This document shows positions 5,126-11,009 of a stretch of DNA of 36,186 nucleotides, in pieces. The position numbers and the translations under genes are program-made. This stretch comes from Candidatus Iainarchaeum sp. (GTDB taxonomy: Archaea > Iainarchaeota > Iainarchaeia > Iainarchaeales > UBA10191): positions 1 through 36,186 of the forward strand of contig JAUSFL010000001.1 in NCBI GenBank assembly GCA_030649735.1, read 5' to 3'. The notes under the pieces were generated by a model. The model did no database searches. It was not told the DNA's origin and saw nothing but the letters and a program-made list of their open reading frames with translations. Each line of letters starts with the position of its first letter. Within the stretch, counting starts at the first letter, position 1.

Positions 5126-5929
5126 TTACTTGAAGAAGTCCACAGCATTCTTGAAAATCTTCAGGCCAGAACTGTCTTCTGGAATTTCGGCGCCAGCGCG
5201 CTTGAGGATTTCCTTCTGCAATGGCCAATTGTCCTGCTGAGTGAACAGAATGTTCCTTTCAGGATGCGGCATTAACCCAAAAATCCTGCCTGTTTCATCG
5301 CAAATTCCAGCAATGTCAAGCATTGCGCCGTTAGGATTGAAAGGGAATTCTCCATTTGCAAGGCTTTCACGCTTTGCGTACTTGAGGACAATCTGGTCTT
5401 TGACTCCAAGCTTTTCCAAAACCTGCTGGCTTGCAGTGAATTTTCCCTCGCCGTGCGCTACTGGCAGGCTAATATTGTCAATGCCTTTGGTGAAAACGCA
5501 CTTTTTTGAGAAATTCTTTAAAGAAATCCAGCGGCATTCATAACGCGCAGTATTATTGTGCGCCAAGGCAACAGAGCGCTCGCCGTACTTTTTGTCAATT
5601 CCGGGCAAAAGCCCGAGATTTGTAATAACTTGAAAGCCATTGCAAATCCCAATGACCAACTTTTTTTCATCAATGAATTCCAAAAGGTTTTCCCACAAGT
5701 TGTTGCGAATTTTATTCGCCAAGGCATTTCCGGAGCCAGTGTCATCGCCGTAAGAAAACCCTCCAGGAAATGAAAGGATTTCAAAGCTTTTCAAAAGTTG
5801 CGGGTTTTTTATCAAGTCATTGACGTGGATTATTTGCGGCAGGGCGCCGGCTTTTTCAAAAGCAAAGGCTGTCTCTTCATCACAGTTTATTCCATAGCCA
5901 GTCAAAACCAAAACTCTGGGAATCGCCAT
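5126..5929 (-). CDS. purQ: FGAM synthase glutaminase subunit
   Basis: 267 residues, class I glutamine amidotransferase fold. It supplies ammonia from glutamine to PurSL for FGAR to FGAM conversion. The nucleophile is C96 in GICNGFQ; the His/Glu pair is H222 and E224 in MPHPER. The N-terminus LTGYGINCDEE is the PurQ opening, and SFPGGFSYGDD is the oxyanion-side loop. Its ATG overlaps the purSL stop in TAATG, sharing one base, which implies translational coupling and equal dosage. A free-standing PurQ is expected because PurSL here has no glutaminase domain. Confidence 0.95.
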   Translation of the reverse strand: MAIPRVLVLTGYGINCDEETAFAFEKAGALPQIIHVNDLIKNPQLLKSFEILSFPGGFSYGDDTGSGNALANKIRNNLWENLLEFIDEKKLVIGICNGFQVITNLGLLPGIDKKYGERSVALAHNNTARYECRWISLKNFSKKCVFTKGIDNISLPVAHGEGKFTASQQVLEKLGVKDQIVLKYAKRESLANGEFPFNPNGAMLDIAGICDETGRIFGLMPHPERNILFTQQDNWPLQKEILKRAGAEIPEDSSGLKIFKNAVDFFK

Positions 5930-8895
5930 TAAAAATCCCTCAATGTTTTCCTGTAAGCTTCATTCAAGTCCTTGATTGAATTCTTGCAAACTGCCTTGCC
6001 ATTCAAGCCCTTGATTTCCAGGCCGTTTCCTAAAACAACCCCGATTTTTGAGAATGCATTGCCTTGCATTAACTGCTCAAATGCGGCAGAGTCTTTTGGA
6101 GCCACAGTGACAATAATCCTGCCTGCTGATTCTGAAAAAAGCAAAGCGTCATTTCTTGAAATACCTTCCAACGGGGTTTTCTGCAAGTCAATTTGCGCTC
6201 CGCAATTGCCTGCAATACATGCCTTTGCCAAGGCAATTCCCAAACCGCCAAAGCCGACAGGAATTGAAGAAGCAACTAATTCTTTGTCAATTGCCTGGCT
6301 TAAAGAATTGTAAATTCCAATTGATTTTTCGGCATTCACTGAAGGCACGTTTTTTCCGACAAATCCCTTGGAAGCGTAATATTCAGAGCCGCCAAGCTCA
6401 TTCTTTGTCAGGCCCAAGGCATAAATGAAATCGCCTTCAAGCTTGAAGTCTATTGAAACGCTTTTTTCGGCATTGTCCATTATTCCCAGCGAGGAAATCA
6501 AGAGCGTTGGAGGCACTGAAATCTTGACTGGAGAATTGCTTTCGTCAAAGCCTGCAAAGTCATTGAACATGCTGTCTTTTCCGGAAATGAACGGAGTCCC
6601 AAAATTAACTGACAATTCAAAGCAAGCCTGCACTGAATCCTTCAATTGCCCCAAGCGTTCAGGCTGCAAGGAAGAGCACCAGCAAAAATTATCCATCAAT
6701 GCAATGTTTTCCAATTTTGTTCCAACGCAAACCAGGTTTTTTATTGCGGCATCAATCGCGCACGCGGCCATTTCATAAGTGCTAATGTCGCCGTACTTTG
6801 GAAACAAGGCCTGCGATAATGAAACAGCGCGCTTGCTTTGCAAAACCGGCCGCAGCACTGTTGCTTCGGCATTGACTTTTCCAGCGCCCTGCAATGGCTT
6901 TAGGACGCTTGTTCCCTGGACTTCAAAATCATACTGTGTTGAAACAAACTCTTTGCTGCAAATGTTCAATCGCGCAAGCATTGCAAGCAATTCTTCAGAA
7001 AGGCTTTCAGGCTCCTTGAATTCCGGCTCTTTCAGGTCTTTTGGAAAGTTTGCGCTTTTCAGGACTTTTTTCGGCAATCCGTCATGCAAGAACTTCAGGT
7101 CTATTTCCATTATTTTTTGGCCATTGCTGTTCACAATGCATTTTCCCGAATCATTGAATTCTCCAATTACTGTGGATTCTACTCCGCGAGAATCCATCAG
7201 GTCCAAAAACTTTTGCACTTTTTCCTTTGGAATTGCCAAAGTCATGCGCTCTTGGCTTTCTGAAACCCACACTTTCCAAGGCTGCATTCCAGGATATTTT
7301 ACCGGAATTTTCTCCAATTCCACAACGCAGCCATTGCATTCTTTGGCCATTTCAGCGACAGAACAGCTAAGGCCTCCGGCTCCATTGTCTGTAATGCTGT
7401 TAAACAATTCCAAATCGCGGGCTTCTTTCACTATTGCGTCGCTTAATTTTTTCTGCGTGATTGGATCGCCAATCTGCACTGCAGTTGCCGGGCTTCCTTC
7501 AGTCAAGGCTTCTGAAGAAAAAGTCGCGCCGTGAATTCCATCCTGTCCAACGCGGTTTCCAACCATTACAATTGCGTCTCCAGGCAATGCGGCTTTTTCA
7601 GTGGAGTCTTTTCCATTAACTTTTCTAGGAATCAGCCCTAAAGTGCCTACAAAAACCAGCGGCTTTCCCTTATAACGCTCTTCAAAATACAAGAATCCTT
7701 GAGGCGTTGGAATGCCAGAGCAGTTTCCTCCAACATTCACGCCTTCAATGACTCCAAGCATTATTCTTTCAGGCAGCAAAATCGGGCTTTGCCTGTCTTT
7801 TGCCTTGAACAATAATTTGGCGTCCTTGGGGTCTGCAAAGCAAAACCCGTAACGGTTTATTATTGGCTTTGCGCTCATTCCAAAACCAATCGCGTCCCTA
7901 TTGACGCCAACAATTCCGGTAATTGCGCCGCCGAAAGGATCCAAAGCGCTTGGGGAATTGTGCGTTTCTGCCTTGTCTGTAACAAGGAATTTTTCGTCAA
8001 AAAACAACGCGCCTGAATTGTCGACAAAAACTGAAGCGCACAAGTCCTTACTTCCCTTCAATGCGCGGATTTGCTCTGTTGACTTTTGGATTTTTTCCTT
8101 GAACAAACCACCTTTGATCTCGTCAAGCTCTGCGGCAAAAATCGTGTGCTTGCAGTGCTCGCTCCAAGTCTGCGCAAGGCTTTCCAATTCAATGTCTGTG
8201 GGCTTTCTTTGCAATGCATTGAAATAATCGCGAATAACTTTCATTGAATCCAAATCCAAGGCCAAAGGCCCTCTTCTAGACCCGTCAGAATCCGCGATTC
8301 CTTTCTTTCCAATTACAATCAATTCCTCGTCAGGAACATTCAAGTCAACCAAGTCAGAGTTTGGCGACTGATTCAAGCGAACTTTTGGCACTATCAAGTC
8401 CATTCCATTGTCTTGCGAGAATTTTTCCCAGCCTTTAATATGGATTCTTTGAATCAAAGGGTTTGCGAAAGACTTCGCGATTTTTTCAGCATCATCCGGA
8501 CTGGTTTTTCCGCGCAAGTAAAAAACCTGCGAGTAATAAACAGTTGTTCCTTCGGCTTTTTCTCCAAAAAAGTCATAAATTGTTTCAGCCGCGGTGTTTC
8601 CAACATTGTCTGTGACTCCGGGCAAAAAGCCTGTTTCAATCGCAAAATCAAAAATGCCCTGCAAAGAAGAAATCATGCCGTTTCCATTTATGCGAAAGCC
8701 CTGCATTACAGGGTTTGAAAGCAAAGAACCGCACTTTTCCAAGTCCGCAAGCTCTAGCTTTGGCGAAGAAACAGTGTAAACATCAATCACATCGACAGCA
8801 TTAACTGCCTTGAATCCAAGCGCGTGAATTTTCTTCAGCTTCGTCAAAGCGCGCGCGTCAGGAATTTTTGAAAAAACCTCAATTCTACAGTCCAA
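5929..8895 (-). CDS. purL: FGAM synthase, fused PurS-PurL subunit
   Basis: 988 residues from the TTG at 8893-8895. That TTG is chosen because GGTGG lies six bases upstream and the protein then begins MDCRIEVFSKIP, a PurS-like first strand; a longer frame to 8967 adds an unlikely hydrophobic leader. Residues 1 to about 170 look like two PurS-like halves (ending NPVMQGFRI and NPLIQRIHI). The synthase core follows: AQTWSEHCKHTIF (about 242-254), DNGAGGLSCSVAEMA, QGAGKVNAEATVLRP and GKDSMFND. Small PurL is about 720 residues with a separate PurS; large PurL is about 1300 with a fused glutaminase. This is the intermediate form, PurS fused and PurQ separate. It is first in the operon and is translationally coupled to purQ. 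Confidence 0.93.
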   Translation of the reverse strand: MDCRIEVFSKIPDARALTKLKKIHALGFKAVNAVDVIDVYTVSSPKLELADLEKCGSLLSNPVMQGFRINGNGMISSLQGIFDFAIETGFLPGVTDNVGNTAAETIYDFFGEKAEGTTVYYSQVFYLRGKTSPDDAEKIAKSFANPLIQRIHIKGWEKFSQDNGMDLIVPKVRLNQSPNSDLVDLNVPDEELIVIGKKGIADSDGSRRGPLALDLDSMKVIRDYFNALQRKPTDIELESLAQTWSEHCKHTIFAAELDEIKGGLFKEKIQKSTEQIRALKGSKDLCASVFVDNSGALFFDEKFLVTDKAETHNSPSALDPFGGAITGIVGVNRDAIGFGMSAKPIINRYGFCFADPKDAKLLFKAKDRQSPILLPERIMLGVIEGVNVGGNCSGIPTPQGFLYFEERYKGKPLVFVGTLGLIPRKVNGKDSTEKAALPGDAIVMVGNRVGQDGIHGATFSSEALTEGSPATAVQIGDPITQKKLSDAIVKEARDLELFNSITDNGAGGLSCSVAEMAKECNGCVVELEKIPVKYPGMQPWKVWVSESQERMTLAIPKEKVQKFLDLMDSRGVESTVIGEFNDSGKCIVNSNGQKIMEIDLKFLHDGLPKKVLKSANFPKDLKEPEFKEPESLSEELLAMLARLNICSKEFVSTQYDFEVQGTSVLKPLQGAGKVNAEATVLRPVLQSKRAVSLSQALFPKYGDISTYEMAACAIDAAIKNLVCVGTKLENIALMDNFCWCSSLQPERLGQLKDSVQACFELSVNFGTPFISGKDSMFNDFAGFDESNSPVKISVPPTLLISSLGIMDNAEKSVSIDFKLEGDFIYALGLTKNELGGSEYYASKGFVGKNVPSVNAEKSIGIYNSLSQAIDKELVASSIPVGFGGLGIALAKACIAGNCGAQIDLQKTPLEGISRNDALLFSESAGRIIVTVAPKDSAAFEQLMQGNAFSKIGVVLGNGLEIKGLNGKAVCKNSIKDLNEAYRKTLRDF

Positions 8896-9282: not shown

Positions 9283-9426
9283 TTAAGGCTTTTCAAGGCT
9301 GGTTTTTTGCAAAAATTCTGTTTTGTAGTAATTGCAGTGCTTTTGCAGACTGCACTTTGAACAATTAGGGTTTCTCGGAAAGCACTTGCGCTGGCCGAAC
9401 TTTACCATCAGTTCGTTGATTTCAAG
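9283..9426 (-). pseudogene. Relic of an endonuclease III 3' end (iron-sulfur tail)
   Basis: Read on the minus strand, this stretch encodes LEINELMVKFGQRKCF, continues with the cluster spacing C-x6-C-x2-C-x5-C, then NYYKT and a stop at 9283-9285. It matches residues 172-205 of the intact nth product (10371-11009) at about 22 of 34 positions, including all four cluster cysteines. Upstream of the Leu-Glu codons the similarity stops and an in-frame stop lies at 9466-9468, so there is no start and no glycosylase body. It uses GC-richer codons (CGC, GGC, CAG) than the tail of the intact gene. It is best read as the old 3' end of nth, displaced when the endonuclease gene at 9497 arrived. Confidence 0.8.
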
Positions 9427-9496
9427 CTTATTCAATTTACGACTGGAAGTCTGGCTAAATAAGCATTAATAAAGTGCAATTCAGAATATTCAATAT

Positions 9497-10450
9497 ATGA
9501 ATAGGCAAATTACCTTGGGAAAAGAGACAGGTTCAATCGCTGGGCACATTCTTGGAGACGGATCAATAACTGCAAGAGATAATGCAGTATTCTTCTCAAA
9601 CACAGACATTTCATTGCTGTCAGAGTTTTCAGAAAACATGATGGTTGTGTTCGGCGTTGAACCCAGAATCTGGGTTCAAGAAAAAAGAAGTTTTGAAGAA
9701 AAAACTAAATGGAAATTTAGGGCTAATTCATTAAAGGATATAGAATTTGGGTGTCCTGTTGGCTTATTTTATAAAAAAATCTGCGGAGTACTTCTTAATG
9801 CTGCTTTAGGCAATTTTGCCATTGGAAAAGATAAAAAGATAACTGAACAAATCATTACCGCACCAAAAGAATTCAAGAAAGCATTAGTTCGGGCTTTTTT
9901 TGATGATGAATGCACAGTAGATGTGCTTTCAAGAAACATACGGGTTTTTCAAGACCGACCTGCACTACTCGAGGACTTTAGGAAATTGCTGAAAGAATTT
10001 GAAATAAATTCAAGCGAACTTCATTTTTATCTAAAAAGAGAAAAACAAAGGTATTATTTCAACATTTCTGGCTTTGACAACTTAGCCAAGTTTGAAAGAA
10101 TAATTGGATTTACAGCAACTGAGAAAATGAACAAGTTAGCAATTTTAATTAAGAAATTAAATGAAAGTAAAACAAAAAGATTATGCAAAAAAGAGGCAAA
10201 ACACAAGATTTTGGAAATCATAAAAAATAACTCTCAGCCATTATGCCTTAAGGAAATAACTAAAGAATTGAGAAATTACAGTGCTAGGATTAAATGGAAT
10301 GAAAGTACGGTTTTAAAACACTTAAAATGGCTTGTTGAAGAGAAAATAATATCTAGAGAAAGAAAAGGAATTAGGTTTTACTGGTCTTGCGAATATAGTA
10401 ATCACAAATCTTTTGAAGATGGCAAATTTCGCATTTCGGTTTTCTTGTAA
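9497..10450 (+). CDS. LAGLIDADG homing endonuclease with winged-helix C-terminus
   Basis: 317 residues, two-motif monomeric type. Motif 1 is SIAGHILGDG at 13-22, with the acidic residue D21. Motif 2 is LVRAFFDDECT at 130-140, with E138 in the catalytic position and Cys where Gly is usual. Residues about 233-292 form a winged helix (LKEITKELRNYSARIKWNES, then a recognition-like KHLKWLVEEKIIS). Family members cut long specific DNA sites and spread by repair-driven copying. The gene is AT-rich compared with neighbours and has no intein splice motifs or host frame, so it is free-standing. Its last 26 codons lie antisense to the 3' end of nth, and the relic of another nth 3' end lies just upstream: the gene sits exactly at an nth 3' end. 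Activity is not certain. Confidence 0.85.
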   Translation: MNRQITLGKETGSIAGHILGDGSITARDNAVFFSNTDISLLSEFSENMMVVFGVEPRIWVQEKRSFEEKTKWKFRANSLKDIEFGCPVGLFYKKICGVLLNAALGNFAIGKDKKITEQIITAPKEFKKALVRAFFDDECTVDVLSRNIRVFQDRPALLEDFRKLLKEFEINSSELHFYLKREKQRYYFNISGFDNLAKFERIIGFTATEKMNKLAILIKKLNESKTKRLCKKEAKHKILEIIKNNSQPLCLKEITKELRNYSARIKWNESTVLKHLKWLVEEKIISRERKGIRFYWSCEYSNHKSFEDGKFRISVFL

Positions 10451-11009
10451 TGCAAACTCTTTGTCCGTGCTTTACCATTAACTCATTCAATTCAAGCCAG
10501 TATGGTTTTGGGACTTTTTTCATTAAATCTAACCTAATCTTGTCAGCTTCCTTCTCCTTTGTCAATCCAAGCCGTTGCGATATGACAGCAACATGAACGT
10601 CAACTGGAATATCAGGAATTCTAAAAGCATAAACTAAAACGCAACCGGCAGTTTTCTTTCCAACTCCGGGCAGGCTTGTGAGCTCTTCCAAAGTTTTTGG
10701 GACTTTTCCATTGAATTTTGAAAGCAAGAGCTTTGAAGCTTGAATAATGTGCTTTGCTTTGGTTTTGTAAAAACCGACTGGAAAAATCAGTTTTTCAATT
10801 TCTCGCGGAGAGGCGCGAGAAAGCTTTTCCGGAGTTGGGAATTTTTTGAACAGGCGCAATGATGCTGGAAAAGTCGTGGTGTCCTTGGTGCGTGCTGAAA
10901 GAATTGTCGCAATCAAAGTCTTGAAAGGCGTTGCATGCAGGACTGCTGGCGTTGTCACTCCAATTTCTTTGCGGAGCAAAAGCATTATTGCATGAATGTT
11001 TTTTTTCAT
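10371..11009 (-). CDS. nth: Endonuclease III (DNA glycosylase/AP lyase)
   Basis: 212 residues. It removes oxidised pyrimidines and nicks abasic sites in base excision repair. The helix-hairpin-helix is LPGVGKKTAG (113-122), with K119 matching the catalytic Lys; D137 in PVDVHV matches the catalytic Asp. The iron-sulfur cluster ligands are C186, C193, C196 and C202 (C-x6-C-x2-C-x5-C). Full length. The last 26 codons overlap the endonuclease gene on the other strand. The tail from about residue 172 is duplicated in diverged form at 9283-9426 and uses AT-rich codons (AGA, ACA, AAA) like the endonuclease gene. This suggests that the present tail was brought in with the insertion. It is last in a run with the radical SAM and KaiC-like genes, with a four-base gap. 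Confidence 0.95.
   Translation of the reverse strand: MKKNIHAIMLLLRKEIGVTTPAVLHATPFKTLIATILSARTKDTTTFPASLRLFKKFPTPEKLSRASPREIEKLIFPVGFYKTKAKHIIQASKLLLSKFNGKVPKTLEELTSLPGVGKKTAGCVLVYAFRIPDIPVDVHVAVISQRLGLTKEKEADKIRLDLMKKVPKPYWLELNELMVKHGQRVCITRKPKCEICHLQKICDYYIRKTSKT

Follow-up and report, generated by a model that had tools for sequence, protein, structure and literature searches.

A free-standing LAGLIDADG homing endonuclease very probably inserts into the active-site codons of the archaeal gene nth and restores the interrupted gene with a diverged, presumably uncuttable 3' end. The locus was analyzed in a stretch of 36,186 nucleotides from Candidatus Iainarchaeum sp. (the window), which is part of a 1.28-Mb genome; the named members found for the phylum of the window were Diapherotrites. 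Comparison of sequences revealed a mosaic nth, a displaced native nth tail, a common insertion point, an association specific to nth, and tail transfer.

The free-standing endonuclease gene (9497..10450, + strand, 317 amino acids) is located between the intact nth gene (10371-11009, - strand, 212 amino acids) and a second nth tail, the relic (9283..9426, - strand), which lacks a start codon. This layout had been described in an earlier note on the same DNA and was confirmed by coordinates, domains, and relic scores. The 3' ends of nth and of the endonuclease gene overlap by about 80 bases (10371-10450). The nth gene forms a single uninterrupted reading frame with the endonuclease gene behind it on the opposite strand; hence, the locus contains neither an intein nor a self-splicing intron. 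An integrase gene is absent at the locus. The nth product has an HhH-GPD domain (Pfam, E 4.3e-24) with the catalytic motifs GVGKKTA and VDVHV, the residues Lys119 and Asp137, and a C-X6-C-X2-C-X5-C cluster. The solved chains closest to it are endonuclease III, and its NCBIfam nth score of 190 bits is below the cut-off of 211.7. The relic has the orientation of nth, is in frame from Leu172-Glu173 to its own stop codon, contains the four cluster cysteines, and matches nth independently (E 2.5e-9, 61% over 36 amino acids).

As an empty-site relative of the window we used G001, a genome of the same genus. It has no such endonuclease and its nth ends in a relic-type tail, as the earlier note had predicted for an empty site. 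The relic is 86-89% identical to the G001 nth tail over 36 columns, and its alignment score is 188 to G001 nth as compared to 125 to the window's own nth (1000 shuffles gave 27 ± 5, with a maximum of 46). Over most of codons 1-100, window nth and G001 share about 72% of their nucleotides; beginning with codon 110, identity is about 50%, except for a conserved WLE(L/I)NELMVK stretch. MaxChi, an identity-switch test carried out with five donor proxies, placed a break at codons 106-108 (z 4.9-6.2, p = 0.0005); controls were not significant, nine in all for this and the further MaxChi tests given below. Separate trees of front and tail disagreed, again as predicted. In the tree of codons 1-108, window nth grouped with G001 (98/97), and its grouping with family f2 was rejected (AU p = 0.002). 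The tree built from codons 118-207 placed the relic with G001 (99/95) and the window tail with f2 (G002/G044/G030), another family of the same order. A sister position of the window tail to G001 was not formally rejected with the 90 columns of this tree (AU p = 0.32); therefore, MaxChi and the relic carry the weight there.

Window nth is G001-like up to about codon 107 and foreign from there on. The native 5' part (codons 1-106) extends over 10692..11009 and the foreign 3' part (codons 107-212 and the stop codon) over 10371..10691, both on the - strand; the latter comprises the catalytic Asp loop and the Fe-S cluster. The relic represents the native tail from Leu172 to the stop codon. The earlier note had let the similarity begin at the Leu-Glu codons; this applies to the start of the relic, but the foreign part of nth starts near codon 107, and the replaced part is longer than had been supposed. 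A MutY origin of the relic was contradicted by trees and scores, which assign the relic to nth. Codon composition had also been put forward. The endonuclease gene is indeed AT-rich (GC 0.33), as no other part of the locus is, and the relic is GC-richer (GC3 0.53), but the claimed AT-richness of the nth tail is not significant (GC3 0.38 vs. 0.43 ± 0.04 for the other window genes; 2630 of 6815 windows were as low). AT-rich codons were discarded as evidence for a foreign origin of the tail, since its GC3 is within the usual range of the window.

When 84,980 species genomes were scanned with a three-sequence alignment of the endonuclease, ten further loci were obtained; a scan of genome contigs with the single endonuclease protein found no locus. 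Two of the ten belong to G072 and G073, which are from another family than the window and encode endonuclease homologues (47-48%) directly behind nth. Eight were new and belong to Pacearchaeota, Woesearchaeota, and unclassified archaea. Every genome is an assembly of the metagenome or single-cell type. Each of the 11 close homologues, including that of the window, is encoded directly behind nth; distant LAGLIDADG genes are not beside nth. Gene orientation at the further loci is convergent, i.e. antisense to nth, in 8/10 and co-oriented in two (L112, L115), and the stop codons of endonuclease gene and nth abut or overlap in most convergent cases. Relics were clear at two of the ten loci and decayed at four (L109, L113, L114, and L116, where the relic is short). 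Including the window, displaced nth tails were thus found beyond the gene at seven loci (window, G073, L109, L110, L113, L114, L116); both relic and junction are absent at L111, L112, and L115. Screening of other free-standing LAGLIDADG genes at 11 loci suitable for it gave no duplicated flanks, with top scores of 36-52; the known cases scored 62-205. An additional LAGLIDADG gene, unrelated to the nth-associated one, was observed near the 5' side of nth at L109 (6533-7483, - strand).

In G073, a native tail of 65 codons lies beyond the endonuclease gene. It is identical at 46/63 positions to the empty-site relative G074 and at 36/63 to its own intact copy, and it grouped with G074 in the tree (89/78). 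G073 nth resembles that of G074 up to the VDTH codons, where identity drops; its tail grouped with G070 from another genus (100/94), and joining it to G074 was rejected (p = 0.014). MaxChi was significant on protein (p = 0.012) and not significant on nucleotides. The nth genes of G070 and G072-G074 (L062, L063, L095, L069) lack all four Fe-S cysteines and keep the catalytic residues. Furthermore, in G065 and G062, nth is split by a change of frame near codon 120, at the HhH motif (L098:2622-3342, - strand; L099:2548-3121, + strand), which is an assembly error or a pseudogene.

The Pacearchaeota set contained 30 nth loci with four carriers. One of them, L133, holds only a gene remnant directly behind nth (1216-1497, + strand), a decaying copy encoding the last ~90 residues of the nth-associated endonuclease. 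The tails of the four carriers and of the gene-less L120 and L143 formed one clade (96/95); their fronts were scattered, and the tail clade was rejected for the fronts (p = 0.0001). The relic of L110 grouped with the non-carrier L119 (100/91), and most MaxChi comparisons for L110 were not significant. Mosaic nth genes were found in L113 and L127 (=L109) with breaks near codons 93-107 (protein MaxChi p = 0.0002 and 0.0004, respectively). The front half of L113 nth (5635-6351, - strand) is like that of the Diapherotrites genus g36 (56%) and like nth of G072-G074, middle and tail are like other archaeal lineages, and the break lies near codon 93-99. L120 (nth 1498-2199, - strand) and L143 (nth 1474-2148, + strand) have the carrier-type tails VDVHVHV/VDVHVHI with no endonuclease gene or relic nearby; they probably are former carriers. 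In all three empty-site comparisons (window with G001, G073 with G074, L110 with its Pacearchaeota relatives), it is the relic, not the tail now present in nth, that represents the native tail.

Five relics (G073, L109, L110, L113, L114) begin at base 0-2 (first/third) of codon 138 (Thr138 in window numbering; ACT/ACA-CAY...), directly behind the codon for the catalytic Asp (VD|TH). These junction matches reached p 0.005-0.015 against shuffles, with scores of 14-25; the same stretch behind nth never scored above 12 in 24 non-carriers. G072 has the same start with a match that is not significant. After their start, the relics of L109, L110, L113, and L114 skip to a more distal portion of the tail; in L110 and L114, the skip occurs at short sequences shared by both sides (GAATTC, CCA). 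This pattern suggests decay by deletion. The window relic starts at codon 172 and not at 138; hence, its 5' part was deleted or the junction arose differently. Within the spacer between relic and endonuclease start (9427..9496), a codon-138 junction is not recognizable (p = 0.70).

The putative homing site comprises codons 137-141 (10587..10601, - strand), with the insertion point after Asp137. It reads Asp-Val-His-Val-Ala in the window and Asp-Thr-His-x-His in most empty sites. Codon 138 is changed in 4/4 Pacearchaeota carriers, where Val replaces Thr, vs. 1/24 others, of which 23 have Thr (Fisher 2.4e-4), and Val138 is also present in both tail-only genomes (L120, L143). Arg142 is lost in three of the four Pacearchaeota carriers and in window nth, and kept in 24/24 Pacearchaeota and 44/46 Diapherotrites non-carriers. 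Val138 alone occurs in 10/46 Diapherotrites non-carriers and is therefore no sure mark of a carrier. Judged from these sequences, VD|TH presumably is the cut site, and codons 137-141 may constitute a recognition site whose altered codons would protect the occupied allele. The earlier note had proposed that the endonuclease gene restores its target with a diverged, cut-resistant 3' end. Restoration is supported by G001, by G073 and G074, and by the Pacearchaeota; cut resistance is suggested by the altered codons.

Ordinary recombination might have replaced the nth tail, with an unrelated endonuclease gene landing later in the intergenic space behind nth. The tail-only L120 and L143 would fit, as they show carrier-type tails without the gene, and so would the endonuclease and tail distances of the 11 carriers, which were not correlated overall (Mantel). 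We nevertheless regard this as improbable: displaced nth tails lie beyond the gene at seven loci with five of them starting at one codon, the endonuclease family was found only behind nth, and carrier tails cluster whereas their fronts do not. The missing correlation indicates that one fixed tail was not carried across phyla, and the idea that endonuclease and tail form a constant unit in all phyla was abandoned as Mantel tests were not significant.

Still less credible is a scenario in which the nth tail was duplicated locally, the two copies diverged, and the endonuclease gene entered between them. The presence of two adjacent nth tails would fit, but the window relic resembles the tail of a different species far more than the intact copy next to it (188 vs. 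125; 99/95), and the intact copy is related to another lineage, most clearly in G073 (with G070 100/94; with G074 rejected, p = 0.014). Trees and scores likewise contradict an origin of the relic by duplication in place.

The preferred reading, in which a homing endonuclease displaces the native tail, also agrees with the properties of the protein. It contains the LAGLIDADG motifs GHILGDGSI and RAFFDDE in two LAGLIDADG_3 stretches (Pfam E 2.8e-14), and the motif acids Asp17 and Asp132 of the core are invariant in 11 sequences (GHILGDGSI and RAFxDDE-type motifs). The AlphaFold model (pLDDT 94.1, pTM 0.90) matched the TliVMA intein (3.7e-9), PI-PfuI (7.9e-8), and I-DmoI (about 4e-7) in Foldseek; sequence matches were to PI-PfuI and archaeal intein models. 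Because structure and sequence both match these proteins, the ancestor likely was an intein-type endonuclease. A winged-helix domain forms the C-terminus of the window protein (residues 234-304, 10196..10408, + strand; Pfam Penicillinase_R, E 4.1e-6) and was not detected in five homologues scanned. Most homologues have an N-terminal part of ~110 residues, N- and C-terminal extensions vary, and the homologue of L116 (4596-5876) has a longer C-terminus. The endonuclease is distributed patchily, occurring in 3/87 genomes of the phylum and 5/378 of one class sample; in the latter, scores drop from 314 to 87 bits at the next match. No relative was found in the viral contigs searched. That the protein is a WhiA-like transcription regulator of nth and not a nuclease, as WhiA among the structure matches and the winged helix of the window protein might suggest, is very improbable in view of motif acids invariant in all 11 homologues, intein and intron endonucleases as best matches, patchy distribution, and five scanned homologues without detected winged helix.

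The homing unit of archaeal nth would consist of a variant nth 3' end and the LAGLIDADG gene, usually antisense to nth. The targets of the endonuclease would be empty nth alleles, cut where the catalytic Asp-Thr-His loop is encoded, and the occupied allele would serve as the template for repair of the break. The predicted product contains, in this order, the recipient nth 5' part, the donor nth 3' part, the endonuclease gene, and the displaced recipient 3' end. With the reading frame completed by the donor 3' end, the host would remain nth-positive, and through divergence of its site codons the occupied allele would escape targeting. In later rounds of homing, the displaced tail could provide the right homology arm; it would decay by deletion. 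Breaks 30-45 codons upstream of the insertion point (window nth, L113, L109) are consistent with co-conversion of the upstream flank, and the L133 remnant and the tail-only L120 and L143 are consistent with later loss of the gene. Cleavage, resistance, current mobility, and the role of the relic are what we infer from these comparisons.

Endonucleases of inteins and introns (PI-PfuI, TliVMA, I-DmoI) resemble the family described here in fold and motifs, and they likewise insert into the active-site codons that are most conserved in a conserved gene; they differ in that here no splicing element is present and a replacement 3' end completes the gene at the DNA level. Phage endonucleases of the free-standing type (T4 seg/mob, F-CphI) also adjoin their target gene and spread with conversion of the flanks. 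They occupy intergenic spaces, and to our knowledge no displacement of the target's 3' end has been described for them. Certain integrases supply a replacement 3' end of their target gene and leave the old end at the far side; replacement end and leftover end are alike, whereas the enzyme differs.

According to a 2026 preprint, homing genes of the free-standing type are in general confined to intergenic sites (PMC13405050). The earlier note knew of no well-described LAGLIDADG example of the proposed strategy; a precedent exists in mobile ORFs with a foreign C-terminus in fungal mitochondria, namely in atp6 of Allomyces macrogynus and in atp6, atp9, cox2, and nad3 of Glomus (PMC3630166). There, too, a hybrid gene with a foreign 3' end is followed by an ORF for a LAGLIDADG or GIY-YIG endonuclease, and the native 3' end, like that of a close relative, is displaced downstream (PMC3630166). 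The same combination, a hybrid host gene with native 5' part and foreign 3' part plus a displaced native end, was found in the window, G073, and L110. The fungal ORFs are located in organelle genomes and respiratory genes, in contrast to the archaeal chromosome and DNA-repair gene described here. Their endonuclease is oriented like the host gene, in several instances also in phase with it, whereas here it is antisense in the window and at 8/10 other loci. Unlike them, a single endonuclease family here apparently uses one active-site codon in three phyla. No archaeal or bacterial report of a homing strategy with a foreign 3' end was found in the open-access literature; as far as we found, the strategy is known from fungal mitochondria and its occurrence in a cellular chromosome appears new.

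Without relying on a splicing element, the family appears to insert itself into catalytic codons of a gene for DNA repair, which extends the fungal mitochondrial strategy to archaeal chromosomes of three phyla (Diapherotrites, Pacearchaeota, Woesearchaeota). The predicted cut site is directly testable with recombinant enzyme, and the family is a natural source of new LAGLIDADG specificities. Mosaic nth genes would be explained by this nth homing family. A wider view, for and against which we see equal weight, is that beside introns and inteins there is a third lifestyle of homing endonucleases in active-site codons, which would use a replacement 3' exon at the DNA level and the displaced tail as homology arm; invasion, loss, and reinvasion may then drive the mosaic C-terminal half of nth in DPANN archaea.
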